From NCBI GenBank assembly GCA_029858345.1, contig JAOUFG010000008.1, forward strand, positions 1-45,131: a stretch of DNA of 45,131 nucleotides. Reading direction: 5' to 3'. Below the pieces are notes generated by a model. It saw only the letters and a program-made list of their open reading frames with translations, searched no databases and was not told the DNA's origin. Positions within the stretch are counted from its first letter, which is position 1; every line of letters starts with the position of its first letter. Below are positions 11,756 to 30,070 of the stretch, one piece after another. The translations under genes and the position numbers were made by a program. The stretch is from Phycisphaerae bacterium. Its GTDB lineage: Bacteria; Planctomycetota; Phycisphaerae; Sedimentisphaerales; Anaerohalosphaeraceae.

Positions 11756-12685
11756 ATGAAGATGACAATAGTTTTGCTGGTGGTTCTGGGGATTGTTGCG
11801 GGCATTTGCGCGGTGGTTTTGGTCAGTGCGGTACAGTCTAAGGGACTGTTTTCAGGTGGCGGCAGAGATATTGCGGTTGTCATGGCGGCTCGTAATCTGC
11901 CCAAGGGGACCCGTTTAACCGCTGACGATGTAACCATGGGAACGGTCAAACAGCACGAACTTTCCTCGGACAGATACATGTCCAATCTCGCCCTGGTGGT
12001 CAACAGAACCCTCTCGGAAGATGTTGTCAAAGGCGGCGTTTTAATGGCCAATTACCTTGAAACCGGTGGCAGTATCCCCGATCTTATTTCGAGACTGGAA
12101 CCCGGCATGCGGGCGGTCAGTGTATCACTGGCAAGCAGCCAGGTCACCGGTGGCCTGCTCTATCCGGGCTGTGTTGTGGACGTATTGGCTTCTTTCCAGT
12201 TGCGTGGCGGTTATGGCTCGAAAGATAGCAAAGGCGAGGCGGTTTCCACCACACTGTTGGAACGCGTCGAGGTCCTTGCCATCGAGGGGCAACTGGAAGA
12301 TATAAAAGATGAAGAGAAGGGGTCATCCAGAGCAGCTCGGTCGGCCCGTACCGTAACCGTAACCCTGAAACTGGACACCAAGCAGGCCGAGGCCCTCCAA
12401 CTGGCCGCGGCCAACGGGGAAATTTCCGTGTCGATACGCAGTCCGCTGGACAAGATGGCGATCGATCCGAATCCGACGGTCTTAAACCGGGGCAAACTGA
12501 CTCGCCGCGGGATGCTGATCGATCCGATCGTCCGGGGTCAGGCCGGCGGCGAAATGCAGCCGGGTATCGGAACAGCCCTCGATCCGGAGCCGTCGTCGGC
12601 TTGGGAAGTAACAGTGATCCGCGGAGCCAATGTTGAGGATACAGAGATTAAGGTAAAAGGCGAAGAAATCAAGGCCGCAGAGTAA
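11756..12685 (+). CDS. cpaB: Flp pilus assembly protein CpaB (RcpC)
   Basis: A 309-residue periplasmic protein anchored by one N-terminal membrane segment (about residues 3-25). The SAF domain follows (VVMAARNLPKGTRLTADDV, about 39-57), and then the RcpC/CpaB domain with GMRAVSVSLASSQVTGGLLY and VVDVLASF. CpaB proteins associate with the CpaC secretin and stabilise the pilus channel. Spacing and order (cpaB then cpaC) are standard for Tad loci. The ribosome binding site AAGGGAG lies six bases before the ATG. The C-terminal 60 residues are charged and probably disordered. Confidence 0.9.
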   Translation: MKMTIVLLVVLGIVAGICAVVLVSAVQSKGLFSGGGRDIAVVMAARNLPKGTRLTADDVTMGTVKQHELSSDRYMSNLALVVNRTLSEDVVKGGVLMANYLETGGSIPDLISRLEPGMRAVSVSLASSQVTGGLLYPGCVVDVLASFQLRGGYGSKDSKGEAVSTTLLERVEVLAIEGQLEDIKDEEKGSSRAARSARTVTVTLKLDTKQAEALQLAAANGEISVSIRSPLDKMAIDPNPTVLNRGKLTRRGMLIDPIVRGQAGGEMQPGIGTALDPEPSSAWEVTVIRGANVEDTEIKVKGEEIKAAE

Positions 12686-12710
12686 AAAATACCAAACGAA
12701 CCCATTTTGA

Positions 12711-12743
12711 AATAGGCAATAGGAAATAGGCAGTAGGCAATAG
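12711..12743. repeat. Heptamer tandem repeat (AATAGGC), nearly five units
   Basis: AATAGGC, AATAGGA, AATAGGC, AGTAGGC and AATAG lie in register in the cpaB-cpaC spacer. They are followed by the cpaC ribosome binding site AAGGGG. Confidence 0.85.
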
Positions 12744-12758
12744 TTTAAGGGGATACAA

Positions 12759-14264
12759 ATGCATAAGACAAAAAGGTACCGAAATGCGGGGGCAACGGTA
12801 AATGGTTTAATGTTGGCTGGTCTGCTGTTGATTTTCATGGCAGTGCCTGCCCAGGCCGTCGTGGGCCTTGCCACCGATGGCGCCGCTTCCGAGGTGTCGA
12901 TCCTGCACCGGCAGTCGCAGATATTGCAGACGCCGTGGAAGGTGGTTCGAGTCGCCGTAACCGACCCGGCGATTGCTGATATCAAGGTGCTGACCGCCGA
13001 TCAGGTGCTGATTCAGGGCCTGAAGATCGGCACGACCGACATCCTGCTCTGGAGCGAGGATGAAACGCAGGTGCTGCAGAAAAAAGTCAACGTGGTTTTG
13101 GATGTGGAGAAAATTCGTGCCACACTGGGCGACCTGTTCCCGCAGTCGTCGTTGCAGTTATCCGAATCCGGCGAAAATCTCATTATCCGCGGCTCGCACA
13201 GGAGCGCCGACAAGGCGGCTCAATTGCAGGAATTCCTGGACAAAAAGAATATCCAGTTTATTGACATGACCGATGTGGCGGGTGTGCAGCAGGTGCAGCT
13301 GCAGGTGCGTATCGCCGAAGTGACCAAAACGGGCCTGAGGAAGTTGGGGGTCGACTGGGTCCAGGCAGGGACGGATTTTCAAAGCGGGATTCGTCCGGGA
13401 GGGGCACTTGCGGATTCATATACGATTGCACCCGACTCAATAATGGACTACGAGGTTGGTTCGTCGGTAACCGCCTTTGGCGTTGTGACAAGAGCCGATC
13501 TTGCGTTTTTCCTGGAGGCCTTGGCTGAAAATCAATATCTGCGTTTATTGGCCAATCCGACCTTAGTGGCCCTCAATGGCGAAGAAGCCGGTTTTCTGGC
13601 CGGTGGTGAGTTCCCGGTGCCGGTGGTTCAGAGTTCAGGCACCGGTGGCGGCGGCGGCTCCGCTATTTCTATTGAATACCGGGAATATGGTGTGCGGCTG
13701 ACATTCAAGCCGGTTGTTCTCGGCGACGGGACGATTCGTCTGTATGCCTCGCCGGAAGTCAGCGAACTGGATTATGTCAACGGCACGACCGTCAACGGTA
13801 CCTCGGTTCCCGGCGTTCTGTCGCGAAAGGCCCAAACGACCGTCGAACTGAAAAGCGGTCAGAGCTTTGCCATGGCCGGCTTGCTCAGCGATTCGGCAAC
13901 GTCCACAAATTCGAGCATTCCCGGTCTGGGCGATCTGCCGGTCTTGGGCCCGCTGTTCCGGTCGGTTCGCTATCAGCAAAAAGAAACCGAACTGGTCATT
14001 CTGGTAACCGCCAATCTGGTCGAACCGATGAATATCGATCCGAACAAAGCGCCGTTGCCGGGACTTCTGCATAAGGCCCCGAACGATTGGAAACTCTATA
14101 TTGACGGCGATATCGAGGTACAGGATCTGAGCAAACTCGATATGATTGACGCCGAATGGTTGCGTAAACTGGGGCTGGACAACTTGAACGGCCCCGGTGC
14201 CTGGGATGAGTATGGAGATCAGGCACCGGCCAGCCAGGCGGACATGAACCCGGATACGATTTAA
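12759..14264 (+). CDS. cpaC: Tad pilus secretin CpaC (RcpA)
   Basis: A 501-residue outer-membrane secretin that forms the exit channel of the Flp pilus. It has a signal peptide (GLMLAGLLLIFMAVPAQA, cleavage near residue 34), then the pilus N-terminal domain (VTDPAIADIKVLTADQVLIQ and GTTDILLWSED). A BON-like segment and the secretin core follow: VQLQVRIAEVTKTGLRKLGV, VVTRADLAFFLEALAENQY, a glycine-rich lip (SSGTGGGGGSAIS) and IPGLGDLPVLGPLFRS, the classic secretin signature. It ends with ETELVILVTANLVEP. AAGGGG precedes the ATG. A C-terminal extension of about 70 residues follows the secretin domain. Confidence 0.92.
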   Translation: MHKTKRYRNAGATVNGLMLAGLLLIFMAVPAQAVVGLATDGAASEVSILHRQSQILQTPWKVVRVAVTDPAIADIKVLTADQVLIQGLKIGTTDILLWSEDETQVLQKKVNVVLDVEKIRATLGDLFPQSSLQLSESGENLIIRGSHRSADKAAQLQEFLDKKNIQFIDMTDVAGVQQVQLQVRIAEVTKTGLRKLGVDWVQAGTDFQSGIRPGGALADSYTIAPDSIMDYEVGSSVTAFGVVTRADLAFFLEALAENQYLRLLANPTLVALNGEEAGFLAGGEFPVPVVQSSGTGGGGGSAISIEYREYGVRLTFKPVVLGDGTIRLYASPEVSELDYVNGTTVNGTSVPGVLSRKAQTTVELKSGQSFAMAGLLSDSATSTNSSIPGLGDLPVLGPLFRSVRYQQKETELVILVTANLVEPMNIDPNKAPLPGLLHKAPNDWKLYIDGDIEVQDLSKLDMIDAEWLRKLGLDNLNGPGAWDEYGDQAPASQADMNPDTI

Positions 14265-14269
14265 AAACC

Positions 14270-14297
14270 ACGAACTACGAACTACGAACTACGAACT
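14270..14297. repeat. Four identical ACGAACT heptamers
   Basis: ACGAACT occurs four times in perfect tandem in the cpaC-cpaE spacer, a few bases after the cpaC stop codon. Confidence 0.9.
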
Positions 14298-14392
14298 AAA
14301 GAAAAGACAGGAACAGGAGTAATGGATAAGGATTCTTTCGGATGAGGGTCCTAAAACAAGATGAAAAAGGCTGACTTTTAATGAGGTGATTC

Positions 14393-15544
14393 ATGACTCC
14401 GAAAACAAAAATATTTTTAATCACGAAAGACCAGGATATGGTCTCTCAGATCGATGCGGTTGCCCGTAACGGCTCGCCGATCGAGGTCGATCAGGTTCTG
14501 CCGGATACCGGCCGGATAGACAAATATCTGGAAACCTCCGGGGTGTGCGCCGGCATCGTGGATATTGATCCGGACCCGCAGGCGGCCCTTGAAGATCTGG
14601 AATCCATGGTTCGCGACAATCCCCATCTGTGCACCATTGTGATCTCGGAGAATATGAATCAGGAACTGATTCTCTCGGCCATGCTGGCCGGCGCCCGCCA
14701 TTTTCTCCAGAAGGGCTCGATCCACGAACAGCTTTCCGGTGTGATGGCCCGTTTACTGACGCATACCGGCGTTAAACAAAGAACCGGCTCTGTTCTGACC
14801 GTATTCTCAGCCAGCGGCGGTTGCGGAGCTACGACGATCGCCTTGAATCTTGCCAATGAGCTGCGGCTCAAAACCTCCAAGGGGGTTCTGGTGATCGATC
14901 TGGACCGCTGTTATGGGGCTGCTTCAGCGTTTCTGGATATTAAGTCCGAATACGGTATTGACGATGTCCTGACCTACGAAGGCAAGATCGATAAACACCT
15001 GATCCAGTCCAGTTCCTGTGCCTATAAGGAGGACTTCCATATTCTGCTCAGTTCAGCGGGCAAGTCGAATAAGACTGAAAAAGGATGGGGTTCCCAGGGG
15101 TTGTCCGATGTACTCCATGCGTGCCGGCTGGCGTATGGCTATACCGTCGTAGATGCGCCGCGAATGGATGAACAGACGGTCAAGATGCTCAGTGAACTCA
15201 GTGATTTTACGATCGTGGTCTTCCAGTTGACGCTCAAGGACCTCAAGTTTGCCCGTTCGATCATCAAGATGTTTAAGGATTTGGGGCTTTCCGAGGACAA
15301 GATCATCCCCCTGGCCAATCGGTACACCAAAAGCCGGTTTGGCAAAAGCGGTTCCCTGATTAGTATTGATGACAGCAGACGTGTCTTGGGTGCTGACAAT
15401 GTGGTGTCAATTTGCAGTGACTGGCCGAATGCCGAAAAATCCTTGAATGTCGCAAAGCCGCTGGCCGATGCGGCGCCCCGTTCGGCAATGCGTAAGGATT
15501 TGCAGAAACTGGTCGACCGGATCCAATCACATTCAGACGAATAA
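14393..15544 (+). CDS. cpaE: CpaE/TadZ-like pilus assembly ATPase homologue
   Basis: A 383-residue protein of the CpaE/TadZ group, which places the Tad machinery in the cell. Residues 1-125 resemble a response-regulator receiver fold (IFLITKDQDMVSQID ... AGIVDIDPDPQAALEDL ... HFLQKGS). Residues 135-380 are a MinD/ParA-type domain. Its P-loop reads FSASGGCGATTIALNLA (about 138-154), where both lysines of the canonical KGGxGKT are absent (Ser and Ala). The switch-like segment VLVIDLDRCYGAAS is kept. Loss of these lysines suggests weak or no ATP hydrolysis, as in some TadZ proteins. GAGGTG sits a few bases before the ATG. Confidence 0.85.
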   Translation: MTPKTKIFLITKDQDMVSQIDAVARNGSPIEVDQVLPDTGRIDKYLETSGVCAGIVDIDPDPQAALEDLESMVRDNPHLCTIVISENMNQELILSAMLAGARHFLQKGSIHEQLSGVMARLLTHTGVKQRTGSVLTVFSASGGCGATTIALNLANELRLKTSKGVLVIDLDRCYGAASAFLDIKSEYGIDDVLTYEGKIDKHLIQSSSCAYKEDFHILLSSAGKSNKTEKGWGSQGLSDVLHACRLAYGYTVVDAPRMDEQTVKMLSELSDFTIVVFQLTLKDLKFARSIIKMFKDLGLSEDKIIPLANRYTKSRFGKSGSLISIDDSRRVLGADNVVSICSDWPNAEKSLNVAKPLADAAPRSAMRKDLQKLVDRIQSHSDE

Positions 15545-15551
15545 CATGACT

Positions 15552-15597
15552 ACGAACCACGAACTGAACACTACGAACTAATAGGCTAAGGACTAAG
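15552..15597. repeat. Mixed heptamer repeat with ACGAACT and AATAGGC units
   Basis: In register: ACGAACC, ACGAACT, GAACACT, ACGAACT, AATAGGC, TAAGGAC, TAAG. It joins the unit type found before cpaE with the type found before cpaC. It fills the cpaE-cpaF spacer, and its last AAGGA may serve as the cpaF ribosome binding site. Confidence 0.75.
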
Positions 15598-15602
15598 TTA
15601 TA

Positions 15603-16943
15603 ATGGATACAAGCGGCATTGGAAGCGGCGAACGCGGTGACGACAAAAAAAAGACGATGCACCGGATCAAGGCTGGTGTGCATCAGCGACTGTTAAGCGC
15701 CCTGAATCTTCACGAGGTGCAGAAGCTTCCTTTGGAACAGCTTCAGAAAGAGTGTTCGGCCAAAGTCGATGCGATGCTGACGCAGGAACAGTATCCGCTG
15801 ACCGGTCCGGAAAAACAGAACTTATTGCGTGAAGTGATGGATGAGATATTTGGGCTGGGCCCGATAGAGATTTTACTTAAAGACCCCCTCATCAGCGATA
15901 TTCTGATTAATGGTCCCAAGCAGGTCTATATCGAACGACAGGGTCGCCTGGAAAAGACAAGGGTGACATTTAAGGACGATGCGCACCTGATGCGGGTCAT
16001 TCAGCGCATTGCGACCAATGTGGGCCGCCGCATCGATGAAAGTACGCCGATGCTCGATGCCCGCCTGGACGATGGCTCCCGTGTCAACGCGATTATCGCG
16101 CCGTTGACGCTGGATGGCCCTTCCGTCAGTATTCGTCGGTTTGGGACCAATCCGATCGATATCCAAAAACTGCTGGAACTGGAATCAGTAACAGAAGATA
16201 TGGTATTCTTTCTGGAAGCGTGTGTCCAATGCAAGATCAATATCCTGATTTCAGGCGGTACCGGAACAGGAAAAACAACACTTTTAAATGCGCTGTCCAA
16301 ATGGATTCCTGCCGGAGAACGTGTGGTGACGATCGAAGATGCGGCTGAACTGCAGCTGCAGCGGGAACATGTGGTCCGTCTGGAAACACGCCCGCCGAAT
16401 ATCGAGGGCAAGGGTCGGATTGCTCAGCGCGATTTAGTCCGCAACAGTCTGCGTATGCGGCCCGACCGCATTGTGGTGGGCGAGGTACGAGGCGACGAGG
16501 CCTTGGACATGCTTCAGGCCATGAATACCGGCCATGAGGGCTCTATGACGACCATTCATGCCAACAGCCCCAGGGACGCACTCCGCCGCCTTGAAAACAT
16601 GGTCTCCATGGCAGGGATGAGCATTCCGGTTAAGGCGATTCGTGAACAAATCAGTTCGGCGCTGGATGTCTTGGTTCAGATCGGCCGGTTGGTGGGCGGT
16701 CGTCGTAAGATCGTCAATGTTTCTGAGATCACAGGGATGGAAGGCGATACAGTTTGCCTCAATGATATTTTTCGTTACCAGCAGCAGGGCGTGGATTCTG
16801 AGGGCAATGCATACGGGCAATTTGAGTGCTGTGGTGTGCGACCGAGACTTGTCGAAAAACTCCTTGCCTCCGGAGTGGAAGTTCCGGTAACGATGTTCCA
16901 GCGCAGAGTGCTGGAAACCGCCGCGGCTAAAAAAGAAAAGTAA
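15603..16943 (+). CDS. cpaF: Tad secretion ATPase CpaF (TadA)
   Basis: A 446-residue hexameric ATPase of the type II/IV secretion superfamily that powers Flp pilus extension (and retraction in some species). The N-terminal domain includes GLGPIEILLKDPLISDILIN. The Walker A motif is SGGTGTGKTTLLNALS (about 217-232). An acidic segment VVTIEDAAELQL follows, then the Walker B region DRIVVGEVRGDEALDML and GHEGSMTTIHANSPRDALRR with the His box. All signature residues are intact and the length is normal. It lies upstream of its membrane partners TadB and TadC. Confidence 0.95.
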   Translation: MDTSGIGSGERGDDKKKTMHRIKAGVHQRLLSALNLHEVQKLPLEQLQKECSAKVDAMLTQEQYPLTGPEKQNLLREVMDEIFGLGPIEILLKDPLISDILINGPKQVYIERQGRLEKTRVTFKDDAHLMRVIQRIATNVGRRIDESTPMLDARLDDGSRVNAIIAPLTLDGPSVSIRRFGTNPIDIQKLLELESVTEDMVFFLEACVQCKINILISGGTGTGKTTLLNALSKWIPAGERVVTIEDAAELQLQREHVVRLETRPPNIEGKGRIAQRDLVRNSLRMRPDRIVVGEVRGDEALDMLQAMNTGHEGSMTTIHANSPRDALRRLENMVSMAGMSIPVKAIREQISSALDVLVQIGRLVGGRRKIVNVSEITGMEGDTVCLNDIFRYQQQGVDSEGNAYGQFECCGVRPRLVEKLLASGVEVPVTMFQRRVLETAAAKKEK

Positions 16944-16957
16944 GGGCGAAGACAGGT

Positions 16958-17947
16958 ATGAATCCAGACCCAACGATCAATGTTGATTCTTTTATTAGTG
17001 TGGTGCTTTTTTTGCTGGTAGTGTCTGTCTGGTGCATTGGCGTGTTTCTGTGGCTGGGGCGGTATCTGTTTAAGCTCGAAGGGGTCCGAAGACGCCTCGG
17101 ACTGACCTCGGAGGCCAGTAAAGATTCCGAGACACTCCGTCTGTGGCGTGACCTGCAGATTGAGCAGACGCCGAGAGAAACCACCGAGAAAGAGACGTTT
17201 ACCCTCGCCGAGAGAGTAAATCACTGGATAAGTGATGCCGGTTGGAAAGTCCCATTCAGGGCGGTGGTCTTTGGGGTATTGGGTGCGGCGGTGTTTGCAT
17301 TCATCATTATTTACAATTTGCTTGGCGGCGTATGGTTGGGTGCATGCGGCGTGCTGGCTACGATTTACATTTTTCTGCAATATACACAAAATCGCATTCT
17401 GAAGCGGGCTAATCTTTTTGAGCGGCAGTTGGTGGATTCACTGGGCATTGCCGGACGCGCCCTGCGGGCGGGGCATCCGTTGATCGGAGCGTTCCAGTTG
17501 ATTGCAGAAGAGATCAGTGATCCGGTGGGAGTGATCTTTCGTCAGATCGTTCAGGAGCAGGCATTCGGCAGCGATCTCAAAGGGTCGTTAAAGAAGGCAG
17601 CAAAGGAAACTCGGAATACGGAATTTAAATTGTTTTCTACCGCGGTGACGGTGCAGGTCCAAAGCGGCGGCAATCTGGCGGACCTGATGGACAGTTTGTC
17701 TTCGGTCATACGGTCAAGGATATGGCTGAATAAGCGAATTCGTGTCCTGACGGCCCAGACGCAGTTCAGCAAGATAGTTCTGATTTCAATGCCGATTTTT
17801 TTGTTTTTTCTTCTGAACGCCATGAATCGTGAATATATGGAACCGCTTTACACAACTCGGACAGGCAATTTTTTACTGGTTCTGATGTTTGTCATGATTA
17901 TGCTGGGTTCATGGATGATGAATAAGCTGGCAAAAATAAAATATTGA
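16958..17947 (+). CDS. tadB: Tad inner-membrane platform protein TadB
   Basis: A 329-residue inner-membrane protein of the T2SSF/GspF family. One N-terminal membrane segment (about 8-30) and a pair near 95-140 precede the cytoplasmic domain, which has VDSLGIAGRALRAGHPLIGAF and the T2SSF core (EISDPVGVIFRQIVQEQAFG ... FSTAVTVQVQSGGNLADLMDSL). Two C-terminal membrane segments follow. Together with TadC it forms the platform on which CpaF acts. The start is 14 bases after the cpaF stop, consistent with cotranslation. Confidence 0.9.
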   Translation: MNPDPTINVDSFISVVLFLLVVSVWCIGVFLWLGRYLFKLEGVRRRLGLTSEASKDSETLRLWRDLQIEQTPRETTEKETFTLAERVNHWISDAGWKVPFRAVVFGVLGAAVFAFIIIYNLLGGVWLGACGVLATIYIFLQYTQNRILKRANLFERQLVDSLGIAGRALRAGHPLIGAFQLIAEEISDPVGVIFRQIVQEQAFGSDLKGSLKKAAKETRNTEFKLFSTAVTVQVQSGGNLADLMDSLSSVIRSRIWLNKRIRVLTAQTQFSKIVLISMPIFLFFLLNAMNREYMEPLYTTRTGNFLLVLMFVMIMLGSWMMNKLAKIKY

Positions 17948-18033
17948 TGTATTTGTTCCGCCGGCATCTTGCTAGCAGATGTGAGCTGTAAGTTGAGAAA
18001 AACCGTGTGAACCCGCGAGTTGGGCGAAGCGAA

Positions 18034-18051
18034 ATCCCGATGTGTCGGGAT
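18034..18051. repeat. TCCCGATG hairpin repeat, copy 1
   Basis: ATCCCGA (18034-18040) and TCGGGAT (18045-18051) form a 7-bp stem with loop TGTG. CGAGTT just upstream can pair with AACTTG just downstream. The core and the following AACTT are shared with the element at 40885, where the sequence continues TAAGTT. Confidence 0.6.
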
Positions 18052-18071
18052 GAACTTGTTTTCTGTTTTTT

Positions 18072-18136
18072 TATTTCGTGTTCGTTCGTGTTTTTCGTGG
18101 TTATAAAATCTGTGTTAATCAGTGAAATCTGTGGAT
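18072..18136. repeat. TTTCGTG/AATCTGTG short repeats before tadC
   Basis: Blocks TTTCGTG, TTCGTTCGTG and TTTTTCGTGG are followed by AATCTGTG, TTAATCAGTG and AAATCTGTGGAT. The same kinds of block occur at 11218-11250 and 19749-19811, in the spacers of tadE and the TPR lipoprotein. Confidence 0.55.
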
Positions 18137-18155
18137 GAAAACAGGATAGAAAGAG

Positions 18156-19070
18156 ATGGGATTTCCAGGAATTGAAATAGCGGTCGCGGTTCTTGTATTC
18201 TTTGCGGTGATCCTGATTGGATTTTCGATCATTTTATATCGTTCAGATAAAAAGAAATCCATTGAGACTCGAATGGTGGGTGTCTTCGAAGACGATCCGT
18301 TTTCCAAGAAGACTGAACAATCCGGGGGAATTCTCAAGTTTGTCGAGAAGATTGGAAATATCGCCTCTCACAGTCGTGCATCGTCCTCGCTGTGGGAACA
18401 GATGATCCAGGCCGGTTTCCTGAATCCCTACGCACCTGCCATTTATACCGGCGTTAAGGTCCTTTTATTTATGGTCGGTTTCTTGTTAACGGCGGTCCTC
18501 CTTATTCCGACGGAGATGATTTTTAGCTCAAAAATGACACTGATTTTTTTGGGAGCGACGGTTTCTTTTTTTCTGCCGAATCTCTTTCTTGTGTACCAGA
18601 TGAAAAAACGGCATGACGAGATTTACCGTCATCTGCCCGAAGCCGTTGATTTACTGGAGATTTGTGTCTCGTCCGGCTTAGGTCTGGATATGGCCTGGAA
18701 CATCGTGGCTGATGAAATCCGTCAGGTAAGTCGGGTCTTGTCGGGAGCAATGTCGTTGACCAATTTTGAGATGCATCTGGGCGTGACCCGTATTGAGGCG
18801 ATGAAACACATGGCTGATCGAACGGGGGTCGCCGAATTGAAGTCGCTGGCGGCGATTCTCATCCAGACAGACCGTTTCGGCACCAGTATTGCTGAAACCC
18901 TCCAAATCTTTGCCGCTTCAATTCGTGAAGAAAGAAGCTTCGTGGCTCAGGAAGTGGCGGAGAAAATGAGTGTCAAAATGCTTTTTCCCATGATCTTATT
19001 TATTTTTCCGGCGGTTCTGATTGTGTTGATCGGCCCGGCAATAATCTCGTTAGGTGAGGCATTACAATAA
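18156..19070 (+). CDS. tadC: Tad inner-membrane platform protein TadC
   Basis: A 304-residue T2SSF-family protein, the second platform subunit of the Tad pilus. An N-terminal membrane segment (about 6-26) is followed by a cytoplasmic part, a pair of membrane segments (about 100-150), the T2SSF domain (HLPEAVDLLEICVSSGLGLD ... AAILIQTDRFGTSIAETLQI) and a C-terminal membrane segment ending in IGPAIISLGEALQ. The 208-base spacer from tadB is filled with repeats. GAAAGAG lies just before the ATG. Confidence 0.9.
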   Translation: MGFPGIEIAVAVLVFFAVILIGFSIILYRSDKKKSIETRMVGVFEDDPFSKKTEQSGGILKFVEKIGNIASHSRASSSLWEQMIQAGFLNPYAPAIYTGVKVLLFMVGFLLTAVLLIPTEMIFSSKMTLIFLGATVSFFLPNLFLVYQMKKRHDEIYRHLPEAVDLLEICVSSGLGLDMAWNIVADEIRQVSRVLSGAMSLTNFEMHLGVTRIEAMKHMADRTGVAELKSLAAILIQTDRFGTSIAETLQIFAASIREERSFVAQEVAEKMSVKMLFPMILFIFPAVLIVLIGPAIISLGEALQ

Positions 19071-19097
19071 CCCATTTTATCATAGGAGAATCTGAAC

Positions 19098-19589
19098 ATG
19101 AGATTTAAAGAAATGTTTGTAATGAGTTTAGTTTGTGTCGTGGTCTTCTGTGGGTGCCAGGAGCAGCAGGCCGGTCCTACCGTGGACGAATCCCAGGTCA
19201 ATCGCAAAATTGTTGACACCTATTCGGATTTAATGATCCAGAATGCGGTCATTGCACAGCACACGCTGTATCCCTATCACTTTGTCAACAACAGCGCGCA
19301 ATTGAACGGCTTGGGCGAGCGGGATCTGGCGGCGCTGGTTCAGCATTTCCAGGAAAACCCGGGACAGATCACCGTCCATCAGGGTAAGACCGAACCGCTG
19401 TTGTACCAGTCTCGCGCACAGACGGTCTATGAGAAACTGCTGGCTGGCGGTATTTCTGACAGCAAGATCAAAATTGTCAGCGGAATGCCCGGTGGCGAAG
19501 GCATGAAGTCCAATGCCGTTATTGAAGTCCTTGAAACTGAGAAAACAACGGATATGGGCAAAGGGTATGATATGGGAGTTCAGTTTTAA
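19098..19589 (+). CDS. Tad-locus lipoprotein, possible CpaD/RcpB counterpart
   Basis: A 163-residue lipoprotein. The signal peptide ends in the lipobox VFCGC, with Cys20 as the lipidated residue. Residues 55-135 (FVNNSAQLNGLGERDLAALV ... YQSRAQTVYEKLLAGGIS) follow the pattern of CpaD or OmpA-like periplasmic domains, with hydrophobic strands and a conserved R at the start of a helix. The position after tadC is where other Tad loci place accessory lipoproteins. A CpaD-like role in outer-membrane secretin assembly is likely but not proven by sequence identity. The ribosome binding site AGGAG lies nine bases before the ATG. Confidence 0.6.
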   Translation: MRFKEMFVMSLVCVVVFCGCQEQQAGPTVDESQVNRKIVDTYSDLMIQNAVIAQHTLYPYHFVNNSAQLNGLGERDLAALVQHFQENPGQITVHQGKTEPLLYQSRAQTVYEKLLAGGISDSKIKIVSGMPGGEGMKSNAVIEVLETEKTTDMGKGYDMGVQF

Positions 19590-24402: not shown

Positions 24403-24842
24403 CGTCACTTTTCCTTTCCAGATCATAAAAAATAGTAATCATACACAGTTTCTTTTCGATAGGGTTTTTATACGCTAAGCCAAACAAGATACGTTTAAAC
24501 ACGCAAAAATCAACAAAAAATACTACTTATTGTGAAATTAATGACATTTTTCTTGTCAAAAAAAGCGACGGGAGGAATTTGTTTTGTGAATTAGGTGAGA
24601 ATACCGCGGGATTTTGTAATAATGGGCTTGGAAACACCACAATCTTGCCGTCGGCAAACGGTCTCTGAATCCCAAGAGAGGGCCGTTTGCCATGCCTCCA
24701 GCGGCGTCTAAGACGGGTTCGGCAGGTTTTCGGAATTATTCCGATTCTGCTGTTTTCAGATTTTCTGTAAAATGTTCTTGTGAGTTTGACAAAACCCCGC
24801 TATCTTTTCTGTCAGTTCTTTGAAAAATGTATAGAAGCATTT
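24403..24842. other. Intergenic region between acs and the cobalamin riboswitch
   Basis: It holds one strong stem-loop: GGCAAACGG (24653-24661) pairs with CCGTTTGCC (24683-24691), with TCTCT and AGAGA extending it inside. No T-run follows on either strand. No coding frame here has a recognised family or ribosome binding site. Promoters for acs and the riboswitch must lie here; TTGACA at 24786-24791 has no good -10 partner, so I do not call one. Confidence 0.5.
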
Positions 24843-25024
24843 TCAGGTTCGGCTGTGATTTTTCAGCCGGATAATCAAATGGGAACACGGTGAAAATCCG
24901 TGACGGTCGCGCCGCTGTGTGTGTTCGTTGTGCATCCGCACAAACCTTTGCAGCATTGTCCCACTGTCCATGTTGGATGGGAAGGGGTTGCAAAGCAGGA
25001 CACGAGTCAGAAAACCTCACCTGA
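24843..25024 (+). ncRNA. Cobalamin riboswitch aptamer
   Basis: The classic adenosylcobalamin-type layout is visible. P1 is TCAGGT (24843-24848) with ACCTGA (25019-25024). P2 is CGGCTG (24850-24855) with CAGCCG (24864-24869). The conserved AATCAAATGGGAAC core follows, then a P3 hairpin CACGG/CCGTG (24886-24902), GACGGTCGCGCCGCTGTG, the CCACTGTCC segment and the B12 box AGTCAGAAAACC near 25005-25016. It lies on the plus strand and controls the operon starting at 25409 through the downstream switch. Ligand type (adenosyl or hydroxo/methyl) cannot be told by eye. Confidence 0.93.
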
Positions 25025-25042
25025 GAGTTGCTTTGTGTTTGA

Positions 25043-25183
25043 GTTGTTCTCGCGAAAAGAACAACGGCACATCTGTTGGTCAGTGCAAATCGAGGAATTT
25101 CGATGCCACCTGTCCCCGACAGAAGATTATTTTTCCTAAATCATTAAGCCGTTGTTCTTCAAGCGAGAGCAGCGGCTTTTTTT
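25043..25183 (+). promoter_or_regulatory. Riboswitch expression platform with terminator and antiterminator
   Basis: The terminator stem is AAGCCGTTGTTC (25146-25157) with GAGCAGCGGCTT (25167-25178), fully paired with two G-U pairs, followed by T7 (25177-25183). GAACAACGGC (25059-25068) is the exact reverse complement of GCCGTTGTTC (25148-25157) and would block the terminator. GTTGTTC (25043-25049) can in turn pair with GAACAAC (25059-25065) and release it. This fits transcriptional OFF control by bound cobalamin. Confidence 0.85.
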
Positions 25184-25276
25184 ATTGGTTTTGTTTTTGG
25201 ATCTGCGCGAAACAGGTCAGAAAGGAATTGCCTATGGTCGAATACCTCATTGAAAGATGATATGTTATTTCCAAAC

Positions 25277-25348
25277 TCCGGTCCGGCGTAGGACCGGAAC
25301 ACGAACAAGGGTCGCTGCGGCGGTTTTTAATCTGCCAACCGCCGCAGC
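25277..25348 (+). other. Two perfect GC-rich hairpins between riboswitch and first gene
   Basis: TCCGGTCC (25277-25284) pairs with GGACCGGA (25291-25298), loop GGCGTA. GCTGCGGCGGTT (25314-25325) pairs with AACCGCCGCAGC (25337-25348), loop of 11. Neither is followed by a T-run, so they are not simple terminators. They could stabilise the mRNA or be a second control point. Confidence 0.6.
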
Positions 25349-25408
25349 ACTCTCATTTAAGGAATTCAGAAAAAATAAAGTTATGATGATACAAGTTCGG
25401 AGGACAAA

Positions 25409-26545
25409 ATGAAAAACAAAATGATGTATGTTGTGATGGGAGGCGCCATTTTGACGGCTGTAAATAGCACAATGGCAGCGGTATCGACTTTTGATGAAGA
25501 AGCATTGGATCCTGAGACGCACTGGGGTGGCGCTGGTACTGCGGTAACAGGTTTCATCAGCGGCGATGCCTATTTCCCGCACAACGCCGATGATTGGAGC
25601 TGGGAGGGCTTTGTGTATTCCAATATGACAGATACAACAACGCCTGGTTATATGAATCAGTTCAGTGCGATTACCGGGGGCGGTGTCGAGGACAGCAATA
25701 ATTTTGGTATTTGTGCAATTCCGCTGGATTGGATGACCGGAACTTATGATCCAATCCCTCAGTCGGTCTCGTTTGAAGAAAGCACTGAAGTGGCCGGGGC
25801 TTATTTTACCAATATCACTTTTCCTTATCTTTCCATGCGTGATGGCGACTTCTTTGCCAAAAAGTTTGGGGGCCCGGACGGTACCGATCCTGATTATTTC
25901 AGATTGATTATTACCGGTGTGGATTCATATGGGAATGAGACCGGCAGTGTTATTTTCTATCTGGCTGATTTCCGCGCCAGTAATGACAGCGAAGATTATA
26001 TCGTGGATCAGTGGACATGGGTTGATCTGTCACCGTTAGGGGCAGTAATCAGTCTTGAATTTACAATGGAGTCGTCGGATATGGGGGCTTTTGGGATCAA
26101 CACGCCGACTTATTTCGGGATCGATAACCTGACCACCGTTCCGAAACCGATTGATGTTGTAGTGGACATCAGGCCGGGTTCGCAAATCAATCCCGTAAGC
26201 ACCCGAAGCAATGGCTGTCTGCCAATAACGATTTCCGGAACGGAATCTTTCGATATTGAAAGCATCGACACCGACTTGCTTTGTCTGCAGGGCGTTGCAT
26301 GTTTACGAAGCTTCAAAGTAGACGTTTCTGCTCCAACCCCTGAATCAGAGAGTACACAGCCGACAACGCTCGGCGGAGATGGTTACGAAGACCTGGTTGC
26401 AGTATTTGATGTCCAGGAAATCATTGCGGCCTTAGGAGACGTTTCAGACGGCCAGGTATGGCAGTTGGCTCTGACCGGAACACTCAATGACGGCACCCCG
26501 ATTCAGGGCAGCGATGAAATTCTTATCAAAGGCAAGCATCGTTAA
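25409..26545 (+). CDS. Secreted DUF4465-like protein under B12 riboswitch control
   Basis: A 378-residue exported protein with a signal peptide (about 1-22, ending AVNSTMAA). Residues 25-245 match my memory of the DUF4465 family: WSWEGFVYSNMTDTTTPGYM, a tract around SNNFGICAIPLDW and the end MGAFGINTPTYFGIDNLTTV. Family members sit in B12-regulated surface loci of Bacteroidota, and, as I recall, the cobalamin-binding BtuH proteins belong to it. Residues 252-375 form a second domain starting VDIRPGSQINPVSTRS that recurs in planctomycete secreted proteins. No lipobox or membrane anchor is seen. GGAGGA precedes the ATG. The inferred role is cobalamin capture outside the cell. Confidence 0.7.
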   Translation: MKNKMMYVVMGGAILTAVNSTMAAVSTFDEEALDPETHWGGAGTAVTGFISGDAYFPHNADDWSWEGFVYSNMTDTTTPGYMNQFSAITGGGVEDSNNFGICAIPLDWMTGTYDPIPQSVSFEESTEVAGAYFTNITFPYLSMRDGDFFAKKFGGPDGTDPDYFRLIITGVDSYGNETGSVIFYLADFRASNDSEDYIVDQWTWVDLSPLGAVISLEFTMESSDMGAFGINTPTYFGIDNLTTVPKPIDVVVDIRPGSQINPVSTRSNGCLPITISGTESFDIESIDTDLLCLQGVACLRSFKVDVSAPTPESESTQPTTLGGDGYEDLVAVFDVQEIIAALGDVSDGQVWQLALTGTLNDGTPIQGSDEILIKGKHR

Positions 26546-26579
26546 GGGTTTTCAGAAATAGATCTCGAAACGATAAAGA

Positions 26580-27755
26580 ATGACGCGATCAGCTGTTAAT
26601 TTTGTTTTGATATTGATTGGCAGTTTGGTTCCGGTTGTCACGGCAGGCCCCTTTGCACCGGATGCCGGACAGCCCGGTTCGACGGCCATTCCGATTCCTG
26701 CTGACGTAAACGATGTATCTGTTTTTGTCGGATGGGTTGACGGGGTTGTTGTCGAGAGGGGGCTTAAGCAGATTGACGATCCCTCCCAAGGCTATGCTTC
26801 TCATGGAGTGCCGGATGATGCGCTGGGCTTTCCCGAAACGGCGCCCCAGTCGATTGACGGTGTTGTTTCATTAGGCGACGGCGGGATTGCTACGTTAACA
26901 TTCTCGAAACCGATTGCCGATGGGCCGGGATATGATTTTGCGATTTTCGAGAACGGCTTTACCGTGATTGCCCCCAATCAGATGTTTTTGGAACTGGCGT
27001 TTGTGGAAGTCAGCAGTGACGGCGTTCATTATGAACGCTTTTCCGCCATATCATTGACCCAGACCGAAAGCCAAATTCCAAACTTAGGGGCCATTGACAC
27101 AACGGATATTCATAATTTTGCGGGGAAATACCGCCGAGGATACGGCACCCCGTTTGACTTGGATGAAATTCGCGATGTTAACGACCTGGTTGATGTGACC
27201 GCAATCACCCATGTCCGTTTGGTGGATGTTGTCGGGACCTTACAGAGCCAATATGCCAGTTACGATGCTCTCGGTAACATTGTGAACGATCCCTGGAAGA
27301 CCAATTTTTCAACGGGCGGTTTCGATCTGGATGCGGTGGGAGTCATTCATGAAAAGACCCTGCTGGCCGATATCAACGGAGACGGCATTGTGAATCTGGT
27401 CGATTTTTCAGCTCTCAGTGCGGCTTGGCAGTCGGGTACGGAAAGCTCAAACTGGAATCATAAATGCGACCTGGATCCGTCTATTAATGATTTAATCAAC
27501 ATTGACGACGTGGTTGTTATGATGAACCAGTGGTTAATGACCGGAGTGTCCTTAGAAGCGGACATCAACGGTGACGGTATTGTGAATCTGGTTGACTATG
27601 CAGCTTTTAGTTTGGCTTGGCGGTCAGGCCCTGAAGATTCCGACTGGAACCTTAAATGTAATCTGGCGCCGTCGATTAATTATTTAATCAATATTCACGA
27701 TATGTTTGTTATGATGAGCCAGTGGTTAATGATGGAAACATGGTACACTGAATGA
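26580..27755 (+). CDS. Secreted protein with two dockerin-like repeats
   Basis: A 391-residue exported protein; signal peptide about 1-21 (LILIGSLVPVVTAG). Residues 25-255 form a domain I know only from surface proteins near B12 uptake genes (GHVPDDALGF-like SHGVPDDALGFPE, FAIFENGFTV, STGGFDLDAVGVIHE). Residues 264-325 and 328-389 are two copies of a dockerin-like, EF-hand module with calcium-loop motif DINGDGIVNLVD. The copies are 64 residues (192 bases) apart; the second copy has lost acidic residues in its second loop (NLAPSINYLINIHD). Dockerins bind cohesins, so the protein may be held on a surface scaffold. The gene starts 34 bases after the DUF4465-like gene and its stop overlaps the next start (ATGA). 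Confidence 0.72.
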   Translation: MTRSAVNFVLILIGSLVPVVTAGPFAPDAGQPGSTAIPIPADVNDVSVFVGWVDGVVVERGLKQIDDPSQGYASHGVPDDALGFPETAPQSIDGVVSLGDGGIATLTFSKPIADGPGYDFAIFENGFTVIAPNQMFLELAFVEVSSDGVHYERFSAISLTQTESQIPNLGAIDTTDIHNFAGKYRRGYGTPFDLDEIRDVNDLVDVTAITHVRLVDVVGTLQSQYASYDALGNIVNDPWKTNFSTGGFDLDAVGVIHEKTLLADINGDGIVNLVDFSALSAAWQSGTESSNWNHKCDLDPSINDLINIDDVVVMMNQWLMTGVSLEADINGDGIVNLVDYAAFSLAWRSGPEDSDWNLKCNLAPSINYLINIHDMFVMMSQWLMMETWYTE

Positions 27756-28585
27756 ACAAAAAGCATGGAAATGAGGTTGTTTACAAAACGCGGGCGTTTA
27801 CCCTGATCGAACTGTTGGTGGTCATCGGGATTATTGCGGTGCTGTTGGGTGTCATCGTTCCGTCGCTCGCCAAGGCAAAGGAGCAGTGCCGTGAGGTCAT
27901 CTGCCGCAGCAATCTGCGGCAGTTGGTGATGGCGAACCTGGGCTATGCCGCCGAGAACAACTCTGAGTTTGTCTTGGCTGCCCCGGATATTTTTACCAGT
28001 CAGAACTTAAAACGCTGGTTTGGCATGCGTGATGATCTGAACAGTTTTTTTGATTCTGCCCGCAGCCCACTGGCCGATTATATCGGGGACGGCGAGGTCA
28101 AGCAGTGTTTGAAGAAAGTCGATTTTCGAAACGGAGATCCATGGACCTGGAATTTCGAGCAGGGCTGCGGCGGCTACGGCTACAATATGACCTATATAGG
28201 TTCCCGCGTATGGGAAGAGTACACGTCTGACAATTGTACCCGTCCTACGCGAGAAAACGAGGTGGGGTCGCCCGTGTCGACAGCGATGTTTGCCGATGCG
28301 GCCATGACAAAATTAGATAGCGGACAACCTTATTATCTCGAATACTCCTTCATCGAGCCGTATTGTTTTGTTGTCAACGGAGAACCCGACGACAGTTGGG
28401 GGCGTCCCTCACCGTCCATTCACTTTCGCCATAACAAAAAAGCAAATATTGCCTGGTGCGATGGTCATGTCAACGCCGAAAAAATCGCTCCCGACGACAG
28501 CATCAATGTCTATGGCGTGTGTTCCTATGATATGCAGATCGGCTGGTTTGAGCCGTTGGACAATTCGCTTTTCGACTTGAAATAG
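27752..28585 (+). CDS. Prepilin-type N-terminal methylation domain protein
   Basis: A 277-residue pseudopilin-like protein. The N-terminal motif RAFTLIELLVVIGIIAVLLG fits cleavage before Phe and methylation of Phe by a type IV prepilin peptidase. The C-terminal HFRHNKKANIAWCDGHVNA is the H-X9-DG motif of the large planctomycete family of such proteins. Its function is unknown; many members are thought to be secreted or surface structural proteins linked to type II secretion. It overlaps the dockerin gene by four bases and so belongs to the riboswitch-controlled operon. Nothing in the sequence names a B12 role. Confidence 0.85.
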   Translation: MNKKHGNEVVYKTRAFTLIELLVVIGIIAVLLGVIVPSLAKAKEQCREVICRSNLRQLVMANLGYAAENNSEFVLAAPDIFTSQNLKRWFGMRDDLNSFFDSARSPLADYIGDGEVKQCLKKVDFRNGDPWTWNFEQGCGGYGYNMTYIGSRVWEEYTSDNCTRPTRENEVGSPVSTAMFADAAMTKLDSGQPYYLEYSFIEPYCFVVNGEPDDSWGRPSPSIHFRHNKKANIAWCDGHVNAEKIAPDDSINVYGVCSYDMQIGWFEPLDNSLFDLK

Positions 28586-28592
28586 GATTCTC

Positions 28593-29267
28593 ATGACCCC
28601 AAAAGAACCCATCATTTTCTGTTTCAGCAGCGGCAAGGACAGTTCCATCGCCATCCATACAATACGCCAGCAGGGTAAATATGACATCGCCACGTTGCTG
28701 ACAACCATCACGAAAGATTATGACCGGACAAGCATGCACGGGATACGAACGTCGATTCTTGCCCGGCAGGCCGAATCGCTGGGCCTGCCGCTTGAAAAGG
28801 TCTTTATTACCAAAAAATCCACCAATGCCGATTACGAGCGTCAAATGCAAATAGTCCTGCAGAAATATTTCGACTGCGGCATCCGCAAAGTCGCTTTCGG
28901 CGACATCTTTCTCGAGGATCTCAAACAGTACCGCCAGAACCAGCTCGCCCGCGTCCAAATGGAAGCAATTTTCCCCATCTGGAAAATCGACACCACCAAA
29001 CTGGCTAATGACTTCATCGACGCCGGGTTCAAGGCCCGAGTCACCTGTGTGGATACCGATGTGCTCGATCAAACATTCGCTGGCAGAAGCTTCGACAGGC
29101 AGTTTCTGGCCGATCTTCCCGAAAGCATCGACCCCTGTGGCGAAAATGGCGAGTTCCATTCCTTCGTCTATGACGGTCCGATCTTCAAAACCCCCATCGG
29201 CCACGAACCCGGCGAGACTGTCCTCCGCGATAACCGGTTCTGCTTCTGCGATATGATCCCCGCTTGA
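28593..29267 (+). CDS. Dph6-like PP-loop ATPase (diphthine-ammonia ligase family)
   Basis: A 224-residue cytoplasmic protein. The P-loop of PP-loop ATPases, FCFSSGKDSSIA (SSGKDS at about 12-17), is intact. The C-terminal motif DPCGENGEFHSFVYDGPIF is the hallmark of the Dph6/ATP_bind_4 family. In archaea and eukaryotes Dph6 makes the diphthamide amide; bacteria lack diphthamide on EF-G, so a different ATP-dependent amidation or ligation is likely. It starts seven bases after the pseudopilin gene and ends the riboswitch operon. An amidation step on a corrinoid or its precursor is a speculation from context only. Confidence 0.8.
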   Translation: MTPKEPIIFCFSSGKDSSIAIHTIRQQGKYDIATLLTTITKDYDRTSMHGIRTSILARQAESLGLPLEKVFITKKSTNADYERQMQIVLQKYFDCGIRKVAFGDIFLEDLKQYRQNQLARVQMEAIFPIWKIDTTKLANDFIDAGFKARVTCVDTDVLDQTFAGRSFDRQFLADLPESIDPCGENGEFHSFVYDGPIFKTPIGHEPGETVLRDNRFCFCDMIPA

Positions 29268-29275
29268 AAACAGAG

Positions 29276-29304
29276 GTTGTTTTTGACGGATTCTTTGTAT
29301 ATAA
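29276..29304 (+). promoter_or_regulatory. Likely comF promoter
   Basis: TTGTTT (29276-29281), a 17-base spacer and TATAAT (29299-29304). Predicted transcription start at about 29311, next to a GTG at 29312 in the comF frame. Confidence 0.5.
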
Positions 29305-29311
29305 TTGCTGT

Positions 29312-30070
29312 GTGAGTTTTCCAGGGTCAAATCATGTTTTCAGCACGGCAAAGACACTCTATCATGCGATGTGTCATTTGCTTTGGCCGGAGCGATGCCT
29401 CGTCTGCAAGGCAACTATACTGCCCGACGACGACCGGCTGTGCCGAACCTGCTGGCAGGAGTTGTCGGCGGCGGTTTCGGCGGATTACTGCCGTCGCTGC
29501 GGTCGCGATGTCAGTCCCTATGGAATCATTGCCGGTAAGTGCGGCCATTGTCAGGATCTGCAATATGAATACGACGGCGTCATCCGGGTGGGGCGGTATG
29601 AATCAACACTGCGGTCATTGACATTGTCGCTGAAGTTTGCCGAACGCACCGAATGGGCGGCGACGCTTTCCGGGATGCTGCGGCAGGCCGTGATGGCAAG
29701 CGGGATGCACGCGGCGTTCGATTACCTGGTGCCGGTTCCGCTGCATTGGAGACGCCGAGCCGGGCGGGGATTCAATCAGTCGCATCTGCTGGCCAGGGGC
29801 CTCAAACTGCCGTGGATTCCCGTTTCGACGGATCTGGTTCGCATCCGCAACACCGAACAGCAGTGGAACCTCAAACCGCCGCAGCGGCGGCGAAATGTAA
29901 AAGGCGCCTTCGCCGTTCGAAGGGGTCATCCGTTTGACGGAAAAACCATCGCCTTGGTGGACGACATCACCACCAGCGGGGCGACGCTGGAAGAATGCGC
30001 CAAGGTCCTCAAGCAGGCAGGCGCCCAAAAAGTCGTCGCCCTCGTCATCGCCGCCGCAAACCACGATTAA
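29312..30070 (+). CDS. comF: ComF family phosphoribosyltransferase-like protein
   Basis: About 252 residues. It has a zinc ribbon near the N-terminus (ERCLVCK ... RLCRTCW, then YCRRCG ... CGHCQ), a ComF core (YLVPVPLHWRRRAGRGFNQS) and the PRPP-binding motif TIALVDDITTSGATLEECAKVL. ComF is linked to DNA uptake and repair of gapped DNA; in planctomycetes its role is untested. The start is uncertain. The frame is open from TTG at 29264; GTG at 29312 fits a leaderless transcript from the promoter above; ATG at 29369 lacks a ribosome binding site. The window shows no other competence genes nearby. Confidence 0.8.
   Translation: MSFPGSNHVFSTAKTLYHAMCHLLWPERCLVCKATILPDDDRLCRTCWQELSAAVSADYCRRCGRDVSPYGIIAGKCGHCQDLQYEYDGVIRVGRYESTLRSLTLSLKFAERTEWAATLSGMLRQAVMASGMHAAFDYLVPVPLHWRRRAGRGFNQSHLLARGLKLPWIPVSTDLVRIRNTEQQWNLKPPQRRRNVKGAFAVRRGHPFDGKTIALVDDITTSGATLEECAKVLKQAGAQKVVALVIAAANHD

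Follow-up and report, generated by a model that had tools for sequence, protein, structure and literature searches.

What does an operon do that is preceded by a cobalamin riboswitch and encodes two secreted proteins, a pseudopilin, and a PP-loop ATPase, but no outer membrane receptor? Where cobamide uptake has been well studied in Gram-negative bacteria, passage through the outer membrane is via the TonB-dependent receptor BtuB. The operon in question lies on the forward (+) strand of a 45,131-nucleotide stretch of DNA from a Phycisphaerae bacterium (contig JAOUFG010000008.1), referred to here as the window, and all coordinates of its features refer to that strand. The operon very probably serves the acquisition of vitamin B12 (B12). 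The reading favored here, to which as a whole we give a probability of about 0.55, is that it is a B12-repressed operon for surface capture and salvage, in which the pseudopilin would couple two B12 binders to machinery of the type II secretion or type IV pilus type. An initial annotation of this DNA had proposed that a planctomycete system for capturing B12 is encoded here, controlled by a cobalamin switch, and the sequence comparisons described below lend support to that proposal. Taken singly, the parts (a riboswitch, BtuJ, a BtuH-like fold, a pseudopilin, and a DUF71-B12 enzyme) are all of familiar kinds, and it is the combination that is unreported; the papers searched contain no report of a conserved, B12-regulated set in which two binders are accompanied, where BtuB would be expected, by a dedicated pseudopilin.

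The riboswitch and the recurrent gene order

The aptamer (24828-25039) matches the covariance model RF00174 over model positions 1-189, the full model, with a score of 75.6 bits against a gathering cut-off of 31.5 (E 5.7e-17), and it is the single cobalamin riboswitch found in a genome-wide search with that model (3.0 Mb, 99.5%-complete genome). The initial annotation had recognized the aptamer and its terminator switch correctly but set the start at 24843, which is 15 bases inside the model match. Downstream of the aptamer is an intrinsic terminator (25146-25178; 14 pairs, then a T run), the 5' arm of which, at 25148-25159, is also the partner in a perfect 12-bp antiterminator with 25057-25068 that is present in the minimum-energy fold. 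A hairpin read from the sequence (25043-25050 with 25058-25065) competes with this pairing and is predicted to be able to sequester the antiterminator arm. The leader RNA is predicted to fold much more stably than its dinucleotide shuffles (z-score about -5). The architecture of the leader and precedents in Bacteroides thetaiotaomicron suggest the direction of the switch: when B12 is scarce the antiterminator would form and the genes would be read, and when B12 is bound the terminator would form.

The four open reading frames that follow (25409-26545, 26580-27755, 27752-28585, and 28593-29267) have the spacings of 34, -4, and 7 bases originally described, and the family assignments made at that time agree with Pfam (DUF4465, Dockerin_1, N_methyl, and Diphthami_syn_2, respectively). 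Whether this order recurs in relatives was examined by surveying the loci around DUF4465 in 40 of them, with loci cut by a contig end excluded from the counts. Each of the 33 loci that are informative on this point has a cobalamin riboswitch upstream in the same orientation; the other 7 relatives are outside this count because the gene is at a contig end or its switch is on a different contig. All 37 uncut loci contain gene 2, and of the 36 that are informative for the pseudopilin 35 contain it, the exception being locus L032. The order riboswitch-DUF4465-gene 2-pseudopilin is thus shared by about 36 relatives that belong to several families, and it is seen at virtually all informative loci of the taxonomic order, a recurrence that is far beyond chance and that answers the question posed by the initial annotation. 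One locus (L063) has the altered order gene 2, DUF4465, pseudopilin, and six others (L033, L043, L044, L067, L068, and L069) encode a single protein that contains both DUF4465 and the gene-2 domain, a fusion that points to a direct working partnership. DUF4465, gene 2, and a pseudopilin are also adjacent in records labeled Akkermansia (L172), Chthonomonas (L147), and Phycisphaerae KatS3mg104 (L179).

The predicted binders, the PP-loop ATPase, and B12 transport

Gene 1 (25409-26545) encodes a predicted secreted, BtuJ-like B12 binder of the DUF4465 family (PF14717, 181.7 bits against a cut-off of 25, E 2.2e-53). It aligns with relatives solved with bound B12, 9hmu (Coraliomargarita D5EK51) and 9fct (BtuJ1), and retains the B12-contacting tyrosines Tyr235 of the HI-loop (NTPTYF; NTPxYF in the family) and Tyr140 of the DE-loop (PYLSM). 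Binding of B12 has been shown for eight divergent DUF4465 members, including the planctomycete member "Pan" (PMC13398666), and BtuJ1 and BtuJ2 are covered as B12-binding DUF4465 proteins in PMC12751083. Because divergent members of the family bind B12 and the tyrosines are kept, it is very likely, as judged from sequence, that gene 1 binds B12, the function for which it had been put forward at the outset. The protein also has a C-terminal extension of about 130 amino acids (26147-26545, residues 246-378) that has no Pfam match and is present only in gene 1 and one close relative (L055:271-1422).

The likely function of gene 2 (26580-27755) emerged from its fold, not from sequence alone. The product is a secreted protein, the N-terminal two thirds of which form a domain of about 235 residues (26646-27356) that belongs to no Pfam family and that the initial annotation had missed; in a sequence-only search of the PDB, mainly dockerins were matched. 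The AlphaFold2 model of this domain has a predicted local distance difference test score (pLDDT) of 94 and a predicted template modeling score (pTM) of 0.92, and its top structural match is the B12-binding domain of BtuH2 (7biz_B, Z 12.1, root mean square deviation 3.2 Å over 160 residues). The BtuG1 H-domain comes second (8blw_B, Z 11.3), and PAPP-A and CBM32/discoidin folds score Z 10.4 or lower. A profile of gene 2 matches the BtuG1 H-domain weakly (E 0.014, 45 positions), and 7biz is absent from the match list. In BtuH2, the residues that contact B12 are Tyr510, Trp511, Trp577, His476, Asn399, and Gln333. From the modeled fold, we infer that gene 2 is probably a BtuH-like B12 binder; BtuH2 itself binds B12 tightly and has homologs in many B12 loci of gut Bacteroidetes (PMC8941943). 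The remainder of the protein (from about 27360 to 27755) is a dockerin-type tail (Dockerin_1, PF00404, 28.4 bits against a cut-off of 22.9, E 1.9e-6). The dockerin-type segment is duplicated in gene 2 (27360-27755) and is single in the relatives of alignment A1.

The operons of B. thetaiotaomicron (btuJ, btuH, btuG, btuB, and btuFCD; PMC12751083, PMC8941943, PMC10404256) resemble the window in having a cobalamin riboswitch and secreted proteins with DUF4465 (BtuJ) and a BtuH-type domain, but the window site is without btuB and btuG, has a pseudopilin in their slot, and has a dockerin tail on gene 2 where the B. thetaiotaomicron proteins have lipoprotein anchors; btuFCD-like genes are located elsewhere. 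Many Bacteroidota have the gene-2 domain, for which the genome collection contains 512 confirmed candidates. In the neighborhoods of the best 80 of these 512, a TonB receptor is found in at least 42 loci, DUF4465 in at least 26, and DUF71 in at least 7, the sensitivity of BLAST making these counts lower bounds. Environmental Bacteroidota loci of this kind have DUF4465, gene 2, and DUF71 in the same order behind a riboswitch, with gene-2 domains >50% identical. In the Flavobacteriales locus L150 the order is riboswitch, DUF4465, gene-2 homolog, TonB receptor, BtuG-like DUF5074, DUF71, whereas that of the window is riboswitch, DUF4465, gene 2, pseudopilin, DUF71; the planctomycete pseudopilin occupies the position of the TonB receptor and the BtuG-like propeller. 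BtuH-like and BtuJ-like binders would thereby extend past the gut Bacteroidota.

Gene 4 (28593-29267) encodes a PP-loop ATPase (PF01902, Diphthami_syn_2, E 2.9e-34) with the PP-loop motif SGKDSS and the motif ENGEFH, which fits ENGE(F/Y)H. The latter motif is the signature that separates the DUF71-B12 subgroup from Dph6, and a role in B12 salvage was predicted for the subgroup in 2012 (PMC3541065); the original suggestion of a PP-loop enzyme tied to corrinoid salvage is in keeping with this signature. Assignment of gene 4 to Dph6 (diphthine-ammonia ligase) was rejected, since EGG(E/D)xE is absent with ENGEFH in its stead and the TIGR03679 score is 91.4 bits against an equivalog cut-off of 197.3. 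Among 38 genomes of the taxonomic order that were searched, a PF01902 gene is found in 5, every time directly after the cassette pseudopilin, so that DUF71-B12 is tightly associated with the cassette. The ENGEFH motif and a linkage to B12 genes are common to the gene and the DUF71-B12 subgroup of COG2102 (PMC3541065), but most reported members are beside btuFCD or cbiB, not after a pseudopilin; the function is predicted in both cases. The enzyme gains a strict genomic association, and it would act in the cytoplasm on imported corrinoids, probably in corrinoid remodeling.

The initial remark that there is no transporter is true at this site, where, as had also been stated, there is no TonB receptor, but it does not extend to the genome. 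No btuB was found in or beside the operon; the single plug-domain TonB receptor of the genome is on another contig, C1 (5 kb; L073/L095), close to an ExbB-like gene. The best NCBIfam model for it is a B12 receptor, with a score well below the model cut-off, and it could be a true BtuB; that C1 is a contaminating contig is less likely. A BtuFCD-like importer is encoded on contig C65 (L115) by a run of a BtuF-like gene, an FecCD permease, and an ABC ATPase. The search for btu and cohesin genes elsewhere in the genome, which had been suggested at the beginning, yields these importer and receptor genes and no cohesin. In a relative, BtuF-BtuD-BtuC directly follow the cassette pseudopilin (L062). 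The corrin-synthesis marker CbiC is absent in 11 of 11 genomes searched, including this one, and de novo synthesis of the corrin ring, having been considered, was rejected for that reason; its absence indicates that the organism depends on uptake or salvage of B12. Some relatives have two head-to-head cobalamin riboswitches (L106:2071-9120, L111:5991-13095), one of which precedes genes that, as read by eye, resemble late cobamide-assembly genes; such loci suggest the salvage of incomplete corrinoids.

The pseudopilin and its possible roles

The pseudopilin, under-rated in the initial annotation, is the most conserved and the most unusual partner in the cassette. Gene 3 (27752-28585) has the prepilin motif RAFTLIE and an H-X9-DG motif, and matches N_methyl (PF07963, 26.8 bits against 21.2, E 3.5e-6), TIGR02532 (21.7 against a cut-off of 16.3), and TIGR04294 (H-X9-DG; 21.5 against a cut-off of 19). 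It has the prepilin N terminus and the H-X9-DG-type C-terminal motif in common with the H-X9-DG/DUF1559 pseudopilins of the Planctomycetes-Verrucomicrobia-Chlamydiae (PVC) group, but it belongs to a B12-cassette clade of its own, and its match to DUF1559 (SBP_bac_10, PF07596) is under the curated cut-off (14.2 bits against 23.3). The 35 cassette pseudopilins form a single clade (support 100/99); 25 further pseudopilins, from four genomes, fall outside it. Such paralogs match the cassette pseudopilin mainly across the N-terminal 60 residues; the globular domain is strongly conserved, cassette-specific, and contains many conserved aromatic and charged residues. A search of the literature gave no relevant paper on a link between pseudopilins and B12, and B12, the riboswitch, and two binders provide a testable ligand context for the pseudopilins of the PVC group, whose large families are unexplained.

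Genomes of the same genus and family without DUF4465 have a parallel cassette behind a riboswitch that consists of a small secreted protein, X, an analogue of gene 2, and a pseudopilin that belongs to a second clade. Support for the second clade is 100/99 for 5 of the 6 sampled, the pseudopilin of L100 being placed elsewhere on a long branch. The X-type cassette of genome G034 (L097) occupies the same acs-comF site as the DUF4465 cassette of the window. Thus, the computed pseudopilin clade matches the type of binder, DUF4465 or X, which indicates that binder and pseudopilin were exchanged together. Protein X (for example, L097:9355-10017, L099:10533-11093, and L102:10195-10815) represents a secreted family of 190-260 amino acids with PEP-CTERM and no other Pfam match; it is also found in B12 loci of Bacteroidota and is a candidate for a new B12-binding family. 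In PDB searches, the top matches of an X-protein profile (A6) are secretion-tail matches, and a profile of the gene-2 analogues (A5) matches dockerins only. The parallel cassette of L102 continues with CobT, two genes read as CobS and CobC, and then BtuF-BtuD-BtuC. In a planctomycete of another class (G282, L255:6491-8271), there are two back-to-back cobalamin riboswitches, one before DUF4465 and the other, a partial model match on the opposite strand, before a DUF1559 pseudopilin.

In the favored reading, the secreted products of genes 1 and 2, one BtuJ-like and the other BtuH-like, would bind B12 while retained at the cell surface, and the product of gene 3 would be a minor pseudopilin specific to this cargo and responsible for its export and display. 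Export or display is preferred among the possible roles because both binders are secreted and the type of pseudopilin tracks that of the binder, but as an assignment for gene 3 it is tentative, its chances being a little under even. Captured B12 would then pass to the BtuB-like receptor, or by another route in relatives in which no TonB receptor was detected, and on to the BtuFCD-like importer. Several points weigh against this reading. The role of the pseudopilin is inferred solely from genomic association, and structure prediction with six pseudopilin sequences was unusable (pLDDT 39) and was not used in the fold search. The link between gene 2 and BtuH is structural, at 15% identity. Also, a search of this genome for the activation domain of MetH, the one B12-dependent enzyme covered, found none.

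A different part for the pseudopilin is suggested by its slot in the gene order, which is that of the TonB receptor and BtuG in L150. In planctomycetes and some other PVC bacteria and Armatimonadota, a pseudopilin working with type II/IV machinery could replace the TonB receptor in outer membrane transfer: a pseudopilus extending through the secretin would take B12 from the binders, retract, and deliver it to the periplasm for BtuF, by analogy with the uptake of DNA by competence pili. Planctomycete pili-like fibers have been described that bind dextran, which is apparently internalized (PMC5394234). Of 53 genomes searched for the TonB plug domain, 17 gave no match, two of them (G006 and G048) with a completeness rating of 99%, and genomes without it still retain cobalamin riboswitches and FecCD permeases; several of them are incomplete metagenome-assembled genomes, so that the absence of TonB needs to be read with care. 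This genome has a BtuB-like receptor, and its count of 14 matches to the T2SSE family of ATPases does not distinguish secretion from retraction ATPases. We know of no precedent for the uptake of a small molecule by retraction, and a retracting uptake pseudopilus is, on balance, unlikely. Still less probable is that the pseudopilin itself acts as an inner membrane-anchored periplasmic carrier, with a corrin-binding globular domain from which B12 is handed to BtuF. Such a carrier would account for the conserved, cassette-specific aromatic and charged residues and for the switching of pseudopilin type along with binder type, but the domain has no similarity to known B12 binders, its structure could not be usefully predicted, and a simple carrier would not need a conserved prepilin motif.

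The frequent adjacency of comF to the cassette raises the question of whether the pseudopilin is a passenger of the comF neighborhood with no role in B12 metabolism. This appears very improbable, since the pseudopilin is kept where BtuFDC and not comF comes next (L062), in other phyla (L172 and L147), and upon exchange of the cassette type, and since that of L255 has its own cobalamin riboswitch. The scaffold that had been proposed initially, in which dockerin-cohesin pairs would take the place of a TonB receptor by gathering the B12 binders at the surface, takes account of a genuine Dockerin_1 match in gene 2 but is scarcely credible: a search of this genome (G000) for cohesin (PF00963) gave 0 matches, and cohesin is present in just 3 of 38 genomes searched. 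Furthermore, some cassette gene-2 proteins of relatives have no dockerin match, the Bacteroidota relatives of gene 2 and of protein X bear other C-terminal tails, and planctomycete X ends in PEP-CTERM. Because the tails vary by lineage, the dockerin of gene 2 looks like a lineage-specific sorting or anchoring tail and would not be the partner of a cohesin. What persists in this deeply conserved, B12-regulated cassette, in which BtuB is lacking, is a pseudopilin specific to it, and in some relatives no TonB receptor was detected; the handling of B12 at the surface of these cells may follow a way that has not been described.

Neighboring genes

The stop codon of gene 4 is overlapped by 4 bases by an open reading frame for a comF-like phosphoribosyltransferase (29264-30070) with DZR_2 and Pribosyltran domains, an overlap that had escaped the initial annotation. 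This gene is a neighbor that is possibly cotranscribed with the operon and probably has no part in its B12 function. Most related loci, across several families, likewise have a comF-like gene immediately after the cassette. On the other side, a Tad-type pilus cluster at 11756-19589 of the window encodes RcpC/CpaB, a secretin, TadZ, a TadA-type ATPase, and two T2SSF proteins. Its end is about 5 kb upstream of the B12 riboswitch, and a similar run of genes seems to be upstream of the cassette in G034 (L097); the proximity of the cluster to the B12 cassette may be plain synteny.

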